The position numbers and the translations under genes were made by a program. DNA of 64,000 nt from Sneathiella sp. HT1-7 (GTDB lineage: Bacteria; Pseudomonadota; Alphaproteobacteria; Sneathiellales; Sneathiellaceae), in contig NZ_JAJFZN010000006.1 of assembly GCF_020731145.1 (NCBI RefSeq), forward strand, positions 62,001-126,000, in the 5' to 3' direction. Position 1 is the stretch's first letter; the number at the start of each line of letters is the position of its first letter. A model generated the notes under the pieces. That model searched no databases. It had not been told where the DNA came from and saw only the letters and a list, made by a program, of their open reading frames with translations. Positions 52,575-60,845 of this stretch are shown here, in pieces.

Positions 52575-53549
52575 GTGTTGATTAAAATCCCAAAAGGCTG
52601 GGAACTCCTAGAATCCAAAGCGACGCCAGAAGACGCTTACTTGAACCGGCGATCTATTCTTAAAGGCATGGCTGGTGCTGGATTGATCGCCTCCATAGGC
52701 TCAAACATTGCGATTGGGAAGGCTTTTGCCGCAGATGGCGCCGATCCGAGCGCGGATCTCTATCCGGTTCCACGGAATGACCAGTATAAAGTAACTCGGG
52801 AACTGACCCCGGAAAAAATTGTGACGACCTATAATAATTTCTATGAATTCGGCTCTCACAAGGAAATCTATGAGGCTGCCCAGGCGCTTAATATCCGCCC
52901 CTGGACTGTCAAGATAGATGGCATGGTCGAAAAAGAGATGGAAATTGATATTGATGAGCTGCTCGCGAAAATGCCCATTGAAGAACGGCTCTACCGGCAC
53001 CGCTGCGTGGAGGCTTGGTCTATGGTCGTTCCCTGGAGCGGCTTTCCGATGAAAGAGCTTGTCAAATTGGCGGCGCCGTCGTCCGGGGCAAAATATGTCG
53101 TTATGCAAACCTTTGAGGATAAATCAGTTGCCCCGGGGCAACGCCAGTTCTGGTATCCGTGGCCCTATACGGATGGTCTGACAATTGAAGAGGCAATGAA
53201 TGATCTCACCTTCATGGTGACAGGCCTCTACGGGAAACCTTTGCCGAAGCAAAATGGCTCTCCCTTACGGCTCGCAGCACCGTGGAAATATGGCTTTAAG
53301 CAGGTCAAATCTATCAACCGCATCTCCTTTACCGATGAACGACCTGTAACTTTTTGGGAAAAACTAATTAAGAATGAGTATGGTTTCTGGGCGAATATTA
53401 ATCCCGAGGTGTCTCATCCGCGCTGGTCTCAGGCGCAAGAGCGGGACATCGGCACGGGTGAGAAAATTCCGACCCTCCTGTATAACGGCTATGGCGAATA
53501 TGTTGCCGATATCTACAAGGACATGAAGGGCGAGCGCCTCTTTATGTGA
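52575..53549 (+). CDS. msrP: MsrP, periplasmic protein-methionine-sulfoxide reductase (catalytic)
   Basis: Molybdoenzyme of the sulfite-oxidase family that repairs oxidised methionines in periplasmic proteins. Twin-arginine signal NRRSILKGMAGAGLIAS (Arg25-26), with Moco-coordinating Cys144 in RHRCVEAWSMVVPWSGFPM. GTG start. At 324 aa it matches YedY. Its membrane partner MsrQ is not adjacent. It depends on the Mo-cofactor genes encoded 15 kb upstream. Confidence 0.94.
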   Translation: MLIKIPKGWELLESKATPEDAYLNRRSILKGMAGAGLIASIGSNIAIGKAFAADGADPSADLYPVPRNDQYKVTRELTPEKIVTTYNNFYEFGSHKEIYEAAQALNIRPWTVKIDGMVEKEMEIDIDELLAKMPIEERLYRHRCVEAWSMVVPWSGFPMKELVKLAAPSSGAKYVVMQTFEDKSVAPGQRQFWYPWPYTDGLTIEEAMNDLTFMVTGLYGKPLPKQNGSPLRLAAPWKYGFKQVKSINRISFTDERPVTFWEKLIKNEYGFWANINPEVSHPRWSQAQERDIGTGEKIPTLLYNGYGEYVADIYKDMKGERLFM

Positions 53550-53679
53550 TTCTTCATGCCTTTGTTGATTTCAGGGAAAATTCCACTCTCGGCGGTTTGC
53601 GAAAGCCGCTGATTCTGCTATCAATGTGGAATAGTTAAACTGGAATAATTCGAATAAACGCCGAGGAGGGCAATGCTAC

Positions 53680-53973
53680 ATGGCCAGCGAAGGATACCAC
53701 GAGTCAGTCGAGGAACTTTCTGATGAAACACGGGATATGCACAGGGCTATCGTCTCCTTGATGGAGGAACTTGAAGCTGTTGATTGGTATAATCAGCGTG
53801 TTGATGCGTGCAAGGATGAGGAGTTGAAGAAGATTCTCGCCCATAACCGTGATGAAGAAAAGGAACATGCTGCGATGGTGCTGGAATGGATTCGCCGAAG
53901 AGATCCAATTATGGACAAGGAGTTGAAAGACTCTCTCTTTAAAGAAGGCCCCATCGGACATCATCACGATTAA
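53680..53973 (+). CDS. Encapsulin-type ferritin (EncFtn) without shell gene
   Basis: 97-aa two-helix ferritin-like protein. HRAIVSLMEELEAVDWYNQR then AHNRDEEKEHAAMVLEWIRR closely match EncFtn of Rhodospirillum rubrum. The ferroxidase residues Glu30, Glu60 and His63 and the nearby Glu29, Glu32, Trp36 and Tyr37 are conserved. The protein stops at GPIGHHHD and lacks the roughly 40-residue tail that targets EncFtn to its encapsulin shell. No shell gene lies downstream. A GAGGAGGG ribosome-binding site sits ten bases ahead of the ATG. Confidence 0.9.
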   Translation: MASEGYHESVEELSDETRDMHRAIVSLMEELEAVDWYNQRVDACKDEELKKILAHNRDEEKEHAAMVLEWIRRRDPIMDKELKDSLFKEGPIGHHHD

Positions 53974-53982
53974 GCCTCGACG

Positions 53983-54012
53983 AAAAAAATGCCGGCCATA
54001 TGAATGGCCGGC
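53983..54012 (-). terminator. Terminator of small RNA copy 1
   Basis: Perfect 7-base GC stem with an 8-base loop, followed in the minus direction by A and seven T. It reads as an intrinsic terminator only on the minus strand, since the plus side has no T run. Confidence 0.8.
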
Positions 54013-54130
54013 AAGTCTGACAGGAGGCGCATCTTGATAAAAGATGCAAAGGAACAAGTCGGACAGGGAGGAAACCTCTCGCCCCTTCCTGGAAAATCCA
54101 GCGCCTAAATGATATATATTTCAATATCAC
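53983..54130 (-). ncRNA. Predicted small RNA, copy 1 (CCTCC-loop family)
   Basis: Minus-strand unit that ends in GCCGGCC-loop-GGCCGGC (53991-54012) plus seven T. Before the terminator lies GCCTCCTGTCAGACTT (the family core), then a GCATCTT/AAGATGC hairpin (54029-54047), and a degenerate second core CCTCCCTGTCCGACTT (54056-54071). TATAAT at 54137-54142 with TTCACA 18 bases upstream is a credible promoter, giving about 148 nt. Coding is unlikely. It is convergent with the EncFtn gene. Confidence 0.65.
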
Positions 54131-54208
54131 TTATTCATTATATTGGATTTTGCCCGCCAATGTGAATAAGGAAAACTAGATATAGGGTAAGTTTTTCAAA
54201 TCTGTTGC

Positions 54209-54240
54209 AAAAAAAGACCGGCCTCAATGAAGAGGCCGGC
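54209..54240 (-). terminator. Terminator of small RNA copy 2
   Basis: CCGGCCTC (54218-54225) pairs with GAGGCCGG (54232-54239) around a 6-base loop; a seven-T run follows on the minus strand. Confidence 0.85.
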
Positions 54241-54355
54241 TTAGTCTAACAGGGAGGTATTGCCTTTCGGCAATACAGATTACATGTGATTGGGAGGAAT
54301 ACATGCAATCGATATCAGCAGGGAGCTGATATTAGTAAATGCTGCAATGCAACAT
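54209..54355 (-). ncRNA. Predicted small RNA, copy 2 (CCTCC-loop family)
   Basis: Richest copy. In RNA order: a stem AATGTTGC/GCAGCATT, a stem ATATCAGC/GCTGATAT with loop TCCCT (54312-54332), an 8-bp stem with loop ATTCCTCCCAATC (54280-54308), a TATTGCC/GGCAATA stem closed by a GAAA tetraloop (54258-54275), the core CCTCCCTGTTAGACT (54243-54257) and the terminator. TATAAT is at 54362-54367; no clear -35. The C-rich loops are single-stranded, as expected of an anti-Shine-Dalgarno RNA. Confidence 0.7.
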
Positions 54356-54495
54356 TCATGCATTATAAGTAGCCATTATTGACCCCGGTTTCCACCGATA
54401 ATATTGCAGTGCACCTATGCAAAAAACGCATACCTTAAAAACCACCACCAAATCAGATCAATTTATATACAGCGCTTTTAGGCGCAGTTTCATTG

Positions 54496-54526
54496 AAAAA
54501 AAATGCCGGCCAAATAAATGGCCGGC
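54496..54526 (-). terminator. Terminator of small RNA copy 3
   Basis: GCCGGCC (54505-54511) pairs with GGCCGGC (54520-54526), loop of 8, followed on the minus strand by A and eight T. Confidence 0.85.
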
Positions 54527-54653
54527 AAGTCTAACAGGGAGGTATATGTCAAGAAGACATAGTATTGCAAAAAACTGGGAGGAGATTTTTGCAAAATCAC
54601 TCAGGTTCATCACCTTCATGAAGACAAATATTGCGTCGCAACATCGTCTGCGG
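54496..54653 (-). ncRNA. Predicted small RNA, copy 3 (CCTCC-loop family)
   Basis: RNA order: a 9-bp stem TTGCAAAAA/TTTTTGCAA with loop TCTCCTCCCAGT (54565-54594), a TATGTC/GACATA hairpin (54545-54561), the core CCTCCCTGTTAGACTT (54527-54542) and the GCCGGCC terminator. A TTGATC/TTTAAT pair spaced 18 bases (54685-54690 and 54661-54666) is a possible promoter just outside the LysR gene end. About 158 nt. Confidence 0.7.
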
Positions 54654-54739
54654 TCTTTCTATTAAATTTGGGAGAGTTAGAAAAGATCAATCTCGTCAAC
54701 GCTACTATGCGTGACCCGCATAGCTTTGCCGGAGGTTCG

Positions 54740-55630
54740 CTAAAATGCGTACTCTTTGATCTTCTGAATGAGAAAATCGCGAAAAATGGTCACTCTCTTG
54801 GATTTTCTCAATTCTTCCGGATAAACATAATAGGTATCGAAGGTCGGACCACCTAGTTCAGGCAGAATACGGATGATATTGGTATGTCCATCAACGATGT
54901 AGTCGGGCAGGCTGGCGATGCCCAGGCCGCTTTGTACGGCAAGAAGCAACCCATAGACATTATTGACCTTGAAAACCGGTTCTTTCGTGCGACCGGCCTT
55001 GATCAGGTCCTTCAGCAGCCAATTCAAGTTCGCGATATTGGTAGGCGCTTCATCGCCATAGGTAATAAGATTGCTTTCAAGGATGTCTTCCAAACGGGTC
55101 GGGGTGCCATGCTTCTTCAGATAACTCGGAGAAGCATATACATGATGATTAACCGTCATCAATTTACGCTGGATAAGGTCAGGCTGCACGGGCGCGCGCA
55201 ACCGGATGGCAATATCGGCTTCCCGCATGCCTAGGTCGAGCTCGCGATCGGCTAGGATAAGGTTGACGGTAATTTCCGGGTAAAGCTCGATGAACTCCCG
55301 TATGCGGGGCGTCAGCCAATTGGCGCCAAGCCCGACCGTTGCCGTTACTCTTAGCTCCCCTGACGGTTTTTCATGCGCGTCCATCAACTGCGCTTCCGTC
55401 ATGGCGAGTTTCGCGAACACTTCATGGGCCGTCTGGAATAGCAATTCCCCCTGTTCTGTGAGGAGGAGGCCGCGGGCGTGCCTGTGGAACAGGGCGACCT
55501 GCAGGCTTTCTTCAAGGGCGCTGACCTGACGGCTGACGGCGGATTGGCTAAGATGCAGGGTCTCGCCAGCGCGCGTAAAGCTGCCAGCTTCAGCTACTGC
55601 ATGGAATATGCGTAATTTGTCCCAATCCAT
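54740..55630 (-). CDS. LysR-family regulator next to trxB
   Basis: 296 aa. Helix-turn-helix in WDKLRIFHAVAEAGSFTRAG then ETLHLSQSAVSRQVSALEESL, then a periplasmic-binding-type sensor domain. It lies 54 bases downstream of trxB on the same strand, probably co-transcribed. This LysR-trxB-Lrp neighbourhood recurs in alphaproteobacteria. Effector unknown. Confidence 0.92.
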   Translation of the reverse strand: MDWDKLRIFHAVAEAGSFTRAGETLHLSQSAVSRQVSALEESLQVALFHRHARGLLLTEQGELLFQTAHEVFAKLAMTEAQLMDAHEKPSGELRVTATVGLGANWLTPRIREFIELYPEITVNLILADRELDLGMREADIAIRLRAPVQPDLIQRKLMTVNHHVYASPSYLKKHGTPTRLEDILESNLITYGDEAPTNIANLNWLLKDLIKAGRTKEPVFKVNNVYGLLLAVQSGLGIASLPDYIVDGHTNIIRILPELGGPTFDTYYVYPEELRKSKRVTIFRDFLIQKIKEYAF

Positions 55631-55684: not shown

Positions 55685-56653
55685 CTATTCGGCGGCTTCT
55701 GCCGAGGTGCTTTCATTTTCCGCAATAAATTTCTCGGCTTCCAGTGCCGCCATGCAACCGGTTCCTGCGGCGGTAACGGCCTGACGGTATATCTTGTCCT
55801 GGACATCGCCACAGGCGAAGATACCGGGAATATTTGTCGCGGTGGAATCGGGGGCTGTGATCAAATAGCCTTCGTCATCCATATCGAGCTTGCCTTTAAA
55901 CATTTCCGTATTGGGCGAATGGCCGATAGCAATAAAGACGCCATGGACGGAAACATCTTGCGTTTCGCCAGTCTTGGTATTGCGAAGCCGCGCGCCGGTG
56001 ACGCCAAACGGATCCTCCGCTCCCAGAATTTCATCCAAGGTGTGATCCCAGATAATCTCGATCTTTGGATTTTTCTTTAACCGTTCGACGAGAATTTTCT
56101 CCGCGCGCAGCTCATCCCGGCGATGAACCAGCGTTACCTTGTCGGCATGGTTGGTGAGGTAGATCGCCTCTTCCACCGCTGTATTGCCGCCGCCGATGAC
56201 CATGACGTCCTTGCCACGATAGAAAAAGCCGTCGCAGGTCGCGCAGGCGGAAACGCCAAAACCCATGTATTTTTGCTCTGTCGGCAATCCGAGCCATTTC
56301 GCAGCGGCACCTGTTGCGACGACAACTGATTGGGCGATAAATTTAGTGCCCGAATCCGCCGTTGCGACAAACGGTCGTTGGTTGACATCCAGATCGACAA
56401 TATAGTCGTTGAAAATGCGCGTACCGACGATGCGGGCCTGCGCTTCCATCTGCTCCATCAACCAAGGGCCTTGTATAGGGTCCGCGAAGCCTGGATAGTT
56501 CTCCACATCTGTTGTGATTGTGAGCTGGCCGCCGGGTTGGATACCATGAACTAGAATCGGGTCAAGGGAGGCGCGGGCTGCGTAAATCGCAGCTGTATCA
56601 CCGGCTGGGCCGGAGCCAATAATAAGAACATCCGTATGATGAATTTCCGCCAT
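55685..56653 (-). CDS. trxB: Thioredoxin-disulfide reductase
   Basis: NADPH-dependent flavoenzyme that reduces thioredoxin. FAD loop IIGSGPAGDTAAIYAARA, redox-active C137-A-T-C140 in ACATCDGFFYRG, NADPH loop VIGGGNTAVEEAIYL and the FAD-binding GIFACGDVQDKIYRQAVTAAGTGCMAAL end. At 322 aa full length. Confidence 0.97.
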   Translation of the reverse strand: MAEIHHTDVLIIGSGPAGDTAAIYAARASLDPILVHGIQPGGQLTITTDVENYPGFADPIQGPWLMEQMEAQARIVGTRIFNDYIVDLDVNQRPFVATADSGTKFIAQSVVVATGAAAKWLGLPTEQKYMGFGVSACATCDGFFYRGKDVMVIGGGNTAVEEAIYLTNHADKVTLVHRRDELRAEKILVERLKKNPKIEIIWDHTLDEILGAEDPFGVTGARLRNTKTGETQDVSVHGVFIAIGHSPNTEMFKGKLDMDDEGYLITAPDSTATNIPGIFACGDVQDKIYRQAVTAAGTGCMAALEAEKFIAENESTSAEAAE

Positions 56654-60625: not shown

Positions 60626-60656
60626 AAAAAAAGAGCCGCCCATAAATAGGCGGCTC
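60626..60656 (-). terminator. Terminator of small RNA copy 4
   Basis: GAGCCGCC (60633-60640) pairs with GGCGGCTC (60649-60656) around an 8-base loop, with seven T following on the minus strand. Confidence 0.88.
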
Positions 60657-60742
60657 AAGTCAACAGGGAGGCGTCATGAAGACTGGAATAGGGATTCCAA
60701 CCTTCTGCAGCCCAAATCGGGCTACAGCATTCAACTTAACCA
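60626..60742 (-). ncRNA. Predicted small RNA, copy 4 (CCTCC-loop family)
   Basis: Dispersed copy. RNA order: 9-bp stem CTGTAGCCC/GGGCTGCAG (60705-60727), TGGAAT/ATTCCA stem with loop CCCT (60684-60699), short GTC/GAC hairpin, core CCTCCCTGTTGACTT (60657-60671) and terminator GAGCCGCC/GGCGGCTC. TTTAAT at 60749-60754 could be a -10. The core matches the tandem copies although the flanks are unrelated. Confidence 0.7.
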
Positions 60743-60845
60743 TCAATTATTAAATTACAATTAACGAATATATATATTTAGGTTTTTTCTTCAGATTTTC
60801 GTTGTGATTCTCCTTATTGGAGAATCATGCGCGGTGCTATGACCG

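Follow-up and report, generated by a model that had tools for sequence, protein, structure and literature searches.

Three tandem anti-Shine-Dalgarno small-RNA-like units beside a trxB-linked LysR-type gene of Sneathiella sp. HT1-7, and their likeness to the rhizobial AbcR locus

The gene order trxB-vtlR-abcR1-abcR2 has been described for A. tumefaciens (PMC7486931) and the order lsrB-abcR for S. meliloti (PMC8844928). AbcR represses transporter mRNAs via anti-Shine-Dalgarno (aSD) motifs, and the LsrB consensus is GCAT-N3-TG-N3-T (PMC8844928). For A. tumefaciens LsrB, a thiol switch with C144/C273 has been proposed, in an account describing it as unique to Rhizobiales (PMC11975290). In Rhodobacter, the small RNAs (sRNAs) SorY and SorX co-purify with Hfq (PMC5036791). 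SorY has its own promoter (PMC6238624), acts on takP mRNA, and limits malate import (PMC6238624, PMC5036791).

The locus analyzed here lies in a window of 64,000 nt (the whole stretch of DNA that was analyzed) from Sneathiella sp. HT1-7. An array of three sRNA-like units directly follows trxB and a LysR gene, and lies between the LysR gene and a converging ferritin-like gene:

54740-55630, minus strand: LysR-type regulator gene (Pfam HTH_1 and LysR_substrate), LsrB/VtlR-like by position
55685-56653, minus strand: trxB, thioredoxin reductase (TIGR01292, 407.8 bits, cut-off 343.45)
53680-53973, plus strand: EncFtn-like encapsulated ferritin gene (TIGR04535, 133.4 bits, cut-off 125; PF22277), converging on the array

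The ferritin-like gene is preceded by a gene for MsrP (methionine sulfoxide reductase; 52575-53549, plus strand), which gives the surroundings of trxB-LysR an oxidative-stress flavour.

This gene neighbourhood is widely distributed. The trxB gene was found just upstream of the LysR gene in all 22 loci of the genus; among the 80 named loci, 69 have a trxB match on the upstream side of LysR. At E<=1e-40, the LysR protein had matches in 41 of 60 genomes, counting its own; a few of these, with 32-36% identity, probably represent paralogues. At E<=1e-75, matches were found in 172 of 289 alphaproteobacterial genomes, orthology being judged from identity and synteny rather than from a tree. If these are the same gene, as synteny suggests, a regulator restricted to Rhizobiales does not fit. 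No cysteine is present in the LysR protein of the window, nor in 19 of the 22 genus orthologues. The thiol switch proposed for LsrB therefore cannot work here, and the signal must differ.

The three units and their elements are as follows:

54496-54645, minus strand: unit 1, about 150 nt, recognized by fold, covariation, and SorX score
54527-54542, minus strand: core 16-mer of unit 1, exact
54527-54504, minus strand: terminator stem of unit 1
54209-54356, minus strand: unit 2, about 148 nt, recognized by fold and by covariation in 20 sequences
54362-54367, minus strand: -10-like TATAAT preceding unit 2, recognized by eye
54242-54257, minus strand: core 16-mer of unit 2, one change
54240-54217, minus strand: terminator stem of unit 2
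53983-54130, minus strand: unit 3, about 148 nt, with two core-like 16-mers and a terminator
54137-54166, minus strand: promoter-like TTCACA-N18-TATAAT of unit 3, a consensus match only
54071-54056, minus strand: second core copy of unit 3, CCTCCCTGTCCGACTT, two changes, upstream and distant from the terminator
54027-54013, minus strand: terminator-proximal core copy of unit 3, CCTCCTGTCAGACTT, one C fewer and one further change
54013-53990, minus strand: terminator stem of unit 3

The 5' ends of all three units were inferred from structure and -10-like sequence. In each unit, a CCTCCCTGTTAGACTT-like core adjoins the terminator, whose GC-rich hairpin is followed by a T run. From 5' to 3', unit 1 contains a 5' hairpin starting with GATGTTGC, a hairpin with CUCCUCCC on top, a short hairpin, the core, and the terminator. 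Unit 2 contains four hairpins, then the core and the terminator. The predicted loops hold CCUCCC within CUCCUCCC in unit 1, UCCCU and CCUCCC in two hairpins of unit 2, and CCUCCC inside a 12-nt loop in unit 3. In units 1 and 2, the CCUCCCUGUUAGACUU stretch before the terminator is predicted to be single-stranded. Folding z-scores were -7.1, -10.0, and -4.8 for units 1, 2, and 3, and none of 200 shuffles was as stable for any unit. Scanning 53600-54800 on both strands gave six terminator-like sites, some of which overlap; shuffles gave 1.1 (sd 1.2). The -10-like sequence of unit 2 falls in an aligned TATAAT/CTATAT stretch of the genus and is absent from the promoter-consensus matches of the region scan; the promoter-like match of unit 3 is the only one in the region, against 2.7 expected in shuffles.

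An earlier note, made from the sequence alone, had described three minus-strand units with GC-rich terminators and CCTCCC- or TCCCT-type hairpin loops. The terminator scan and the folding bear out the former, and such loops were found in the predicted structures of all three units. Its nearly identical 16-mer before each terminator applies to unit 1 (exact) and unit 2 (one change) but not to unit 3, where the proximal copy is altered and the second copy lies upstream.

Conservation in the genus was counted in 21 of the 22 loci, the remaining one (L018) comprising only 100 nt downstream of LysR. Units are present in all 21, as the earlier note had expected of related genomes. By the strict pattern of core plus terminator, three units were found in 13 loci, two in 6, and one in 2; three terminators were seen in 18. 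Covariation was assessed in same-genus sequences including the window's own, 20 for unit 2 and 15 for unit 1. In unit 2, 99.5% of cells were paired and both partners had changed in 18 of 37 pairs, against a shuffle mean of 11.2; in unit 1, the corresponding values were 92.2% and 25 of 37, against 11.3. None of 500 shuffles reached either count, and 27-47% of cells were paired in slid-alignment controls. The number of further pair types was not above shuffles in either unit. The alignment of unit 3 contains 16 predicted pairs, 12 of them with compensated changes, and many broken cells. The hairpins of units 1 and 2 covary strongly in the genus, and those of unit 3 do so more loosely; the earlier suggestion that structure outlasts sequence stands for the first two units and is weaker for the third. 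In a sister genus (locus L031), a second unit was observed at 2911-2984 downstream of the first (33.4 bits with SorX), with a palindrome between them recognized by eye. From this second unit, the tandem state may predate the genus of the window.

Operator-like palindromes were found ahead of units 1 and 2:

54706-54722, minus strand: putative LysR operator 1, TATGCGGGTCACGCATA, inverted repeat preceding unit 1
54416-54432, minus strand: putative LysR operator 2, TATGCGTTTTTTGCATA, inverted repeat preceding unit 2
54408-54420, minus strand: LsrB-type box GCATAGGTGCACT in the unit 2 promoter, matching the LsrB consensus without a mismatch and overlapping the palindrome

The LsrB box is exact in unit 2, has one mismatch by eye in unit 1, and is absent from unit 3. 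The unit 2 box and its surroundings are retained in 20 of 21 genus loci; the exception, L019, has a fitting sequence only in different surroundings. The longer pattern, YATGC-N7-GCATR, is an LTTR-like T-N11-A palindrome located roughly 150-190 nt (mostly 175-187) ahead of the unit core. In the 21 genus intergenic regions it occurs 47 times, two of them inside or beyond the RNAs, against 0.54 expected from shuffles that preserve base composition only. Outside the genus, shuffles of the same kind gave a palindrome within 260 nt upstream in 0 of 980 cases, compared with 36 of 49 units; 13 have none, and locus L053, which looks the same as L011, was left out of this count. Of these 49 units, 16 have a recognizable 5' hairpin, GATGTTGC-N-GCA[AG]. 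The distance from palindrome start to hairpin start is 75-78 nt in the 12 non-genus units with both elements and 75-77 nt in the genus pairs. The spacing between operator and presumed 5' end is thus fixed, while the length of the remaining RNA varies. No YATGC-N7-GCATR repeat precedes unit 3 in the window, so this unit may not be LysR-controlled; a palindrome is present at the unit 3 position in 8 of 21 genus loci.

Three successive terminators downstream of a gene could also be cis elements, the stem-loops serving merely as terminators or RNA-stability elements downstream of lysR, or the core and loops could act as a sponge that titrates another RNA, much as the Caulobacter sponge RNA CrfA is able to antagonize sibling sRNAs (PMC12559287). 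Since termination needs neither conserved CCUCCC loops nor a 5' hairpin nor separate palindromes, we consider this reading improbable.

The spread of the 3' module across Alphaproteobacteria was analyzed with a covariance model, R1, trained on 50 modules including the three units of the window; L051 (same place as L032) and L053 were left out of the module list. Matches at E<1e-7, always on the LysR strand, were found in 39 of the 80 named loci, 19 of which supplied training sequences. At E<=1e-4, 160 of 289 alphaproteobacterial genomes have a match. Among the matches listed, 102 genomes have both LysR and R1, and in 91 of these R1 lies 0-4 kb downstream on the same strand (within 600 nt in 82); 48 of the 150 genomes with a listed LysR have no R1 match among the 150 listed. 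Of those 150 R1 matches, 98 follow a listed LysR at a distance of up to 4 kb; another 23 lie elsewhere in genomes with a listed LysR, and 29 come from genomes without one. In a control of 249 genomes of the phylum, from within and outside the class together, all matches at E<=1e-6 fell within the class, and five matches outside had E-values of 1.6e-5 to 8.2e-5. In Azospirillum, Kiloniella, Minwuia, and Thalassospira, the slot is occupied by [AG]CGTCTCCCAGACGT[AG]AAGCCTCCCTG... followed by a terminator; no sRNA family was reported at the Rfam cut-off in five such loci scanned.

In the own genome, the R1 search returned the three units and one more match, at 60626-60695 of the window, the next match having an E-value of 0.002. 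This fourth related sRNA-like unit (60626-60771, minus strand; R1 E 1.1e-8) reads GCCTCCCTGTTGACTTGAGCCGCC..., has a terminator, and is located downstream of a DUF1192 gene. Against Rfam it scores 44.6 bits with BjrC1505 (cut-off 50, E 4.8e-7) and 34.9 bits with suhB (cut-off 41). Two further matches to the core 16-mer in this genome, each with two mismatches, were rejected as sRNAs. The other strand of C5:584190 is the ribosome-binding site before a FAD_binding_3 gene, and C5:31476 lies inside an apparent reverse-strand coding frame, judged by eye.

At Rfam gathering cut-offs, no family was found anywhere in the 64,000-nt window, in line with the possibly distinct family that the earlier note had suggested. 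The nearest Rfam model, by score, is SorX (RF02784), just under its cut-off of 46.6 bits: unit 1 scored 44.1 (E 2.7e-9), unit 3 scored 39.9 (E 4.6e-8), and unit 2 scored 32.2 (E 8.9e-6). The first RNA of the sister-genus locus L031 came closer, at 46.0 bits. Because SorX itself is cleaved by RNase E from the ompR-1 3' UTR (PMC8625941), the units could be SorX family members whose conserved 3' module is processed by RNase E from a longer mRNA 3' UTR, here that of lysR, rather than separate genes. Yet every score is under the cut-off, SorX spans only the 3' ~70 nt of ~150 conserved nt, and the neighbouring gene encodes LysR, not OmpR; moreover, each unit has its own terminator, and units 1 and 2 are each preceded by a separate palindrome. 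Such an origin is unlikely, though less so than the cis-element or sponge reading.

SorY (RF02651; cut-off 111 bits) scored 27.8, 19.3, and 16.0 bits with units 1, 2, and 3, and 62.1 bits with the RNA of locus L046. In the family of genome G046, presumably Rhodobacteraceae, SorY-like RNAs were matched in 35 of 41 genomes, none of the 41 above the SorY cut-off. In 18 of the best 20 loci, these RNAs lie less than 800 nt downstream of the same LysR, and a palindrome is nearby in 10 of the 20. The suhB/MmgR model (alpha-r8, RF00519; cut-off 41) gave 30.2, 27.9, and 21.4 bits.

The CCUCCC-type loops in several hairpins recall ar14 and cuckoo/CcsR RNAs, a kinship that the earlier note had drawn. The ar14 model (RF02344) was rejected, with 21.2 bits on unit 1 (E 0.12) against a cut-off of 58.8. 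We take SmelA075 and SmelA099 to represent the cuckoo family. Both bear CCUCCUCCC in every hairpin loop (PMC3927594), whereas the loops of the units differ and only one hairpin of unit 1 approaches this sequence. With the neighbourhood being that of AbcR, we give membership in either group very little credence. What holds of the earlier reading is the tandem aSD sRNA-like units, their copies in relatives, and the covariation; the link to ar14 and cuckoo/CcsR is not supported. That reading did not take in the trxB-LysR surroundings, the LTTR-like palindromes, or the resemblance to AbcR, SorX, and SorY.

Searched with the AbcR family model (ar15; cut-off 40 bits), the own genome gave nothing at E<=1, and none of 8 genomes had a match above the cut-off. 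Downstream of the same LysR, Rfam ar15 was found at its cut-off in 3 of 15 loci scanned, all from Mesorhizobium (46.2, 43.9, and 46.4 bits in L106, L107, and L112). AbcR-like RNAs were recognized by eye in the same slot in Stappia L093, Roseibium L127, Pseudorhodoplanes L115, and Bradyrhizobium L119, each with a hairpin loop rich in CCTCC, TGTTCCCCTC or a variant close to it, and a terminator; ar15 was not reported at the Rfam cut-off for L093 or L119. Of the two AbcR aSD motifs, the first (CUCCUCCC/CUCCCA in a hairpin loop) is present in unit 1 and nearly so in unit 2, and the second (UUCCCCUC/GUUCCC between hairpins) is replaced by CCUCCCUGUUAGACUU.

Candidate targets were searched with CAGGGAGG-N3-9-ATG, which occurs 16 times in the own genome (0 for the reversed-pattern control); two of the 16 sites lie opposite sRNAs, one on the antisense strand of unit 1 and the other on that of the fourth sRNA. 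Six precede ORFs of more than 100 aa: five encode TauD, FAD_binding_3, DctM, DctQ, and hemerythrin by Pfam, and the sixth is presumably phosphopentomutase. Pairing these six sites with the cores gave RNA duplex energies between -15.8 and -20.1 kcal/mol; for 72 ORF starts of the window, the mean was -8.7 and the best value -18.7. As the sites were selected for complementarity, these energies are no independent test. At locus L197 (C5, 2213-6569), the FAD_binding_3 gene is followed by a TRAP transporter (dctP, dctQ-like, dctM), and CAGGGAGG, which is complementary to the sRNA core, occurs in two of the start regions. The candidate dctM site lacks conservation: of 16 genus loci, one has CAGGGAGG and 7 have GGGAGG. 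This single target test having failed, no target is named.

Given the observed neighbourhood, conservation, covariation, and operator-like palindromes with their spacing, we think it likely that the units are separate AbcR-like aSD sRNA genes under an LsrB/VtlR-type LysR regulator, repressing mRNAs and belonging to a wider LysR-linked set in many alphaproteobacterial families. Each unit would be transcribed from the minus strand as its own sRNA gene. The neighbouring LysR protein, the putative LsrB/VtlR counterpart, would bind the upstream palindromes and set transcription, both the binding and its sign being presumed. The RNAs would expose CCUCCC-type aSD loops and an unpaired CCUCCCUGUUAGACUU before the terminator, and these could pair with GGGAGG-type ribosome-binding sites of metabolic or transport mRNAs. 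Such pairing would repress those mRNAs, probably with Hfq, to which AbcR is bound.

We also lean, with less assurance, towards a common origin: AbcR, the SorY-like RNAs, and these units may be products of one ancestral alphaproteobacterial locus, a trxB-adjacent LysR gene with an aSD sRNA under a YATGC-N7-GCATR operator. The RNA bodies would have diverged too far for any single Rfam model, with regulator, operator, and slot retained, and this genus would have expanded the set to three RNAs. If so, LsrB would not be confined to Rhizobiales, contrary to PMC11975290, and its original job would be running this sRNA. One locus and one regulator would link sRNAs studied apart in rhizobia (AbcR) and Rhodobacter (SorX/SorY). 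The palindrome gives a candidate DNA-binding motif testable at once across many species, and loci with one, two, and three sibling RNAs form a natural series for asking why siblings persist. A full-text search, with most subscription papers outside its reach, found no description of the RNA type, the triplication, or the shared palindrome.

Among known systems, suhB/MmgR and SisA-D of Caulobacter share with the units a hairpin, CUCCCU..AGACUU, and a terminator, and Rfam clan CL00108 is common to suhB and ar15; no tie of these RNAs to LysR was found in the literature examined. SorY of Rhodobacter sphaeroides has the same core. SorX of the same species resembles the units in its 3' hairpin, CCUCCCUGUUgGAc stretch, and GC-rich terminator but is a 75-nt cleavage product of the ompR-1 3' UTR (PMC6238624), whereas the units are ~150 nt and lie beside LysR. 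With AbcR1/AbcR2 (alpha-r15, RF02345; Sinorhizobium, Agrobacterium, Brucella), the slot downstream of trxB and lsrB/vtlR is common to both, as are tandem copies, an LsrB-type box, CUCCUCCC topping a hairpin (unit 1), and a single-stranded CCC-rich stretch before the last hairpin. The units differ from AbcR in having three copies instead of two, additional hairpins, a cysteine-free LysR, and the core CCUCCCUGUUAGACUU in place of the rhizobial GUUCCC. They are AbcR-like by arrangement, not ar15 by sequence model, and the array looks like an unrecognized branch of the rhizobial gene-control locus with its RNAs triplicated in this genus.
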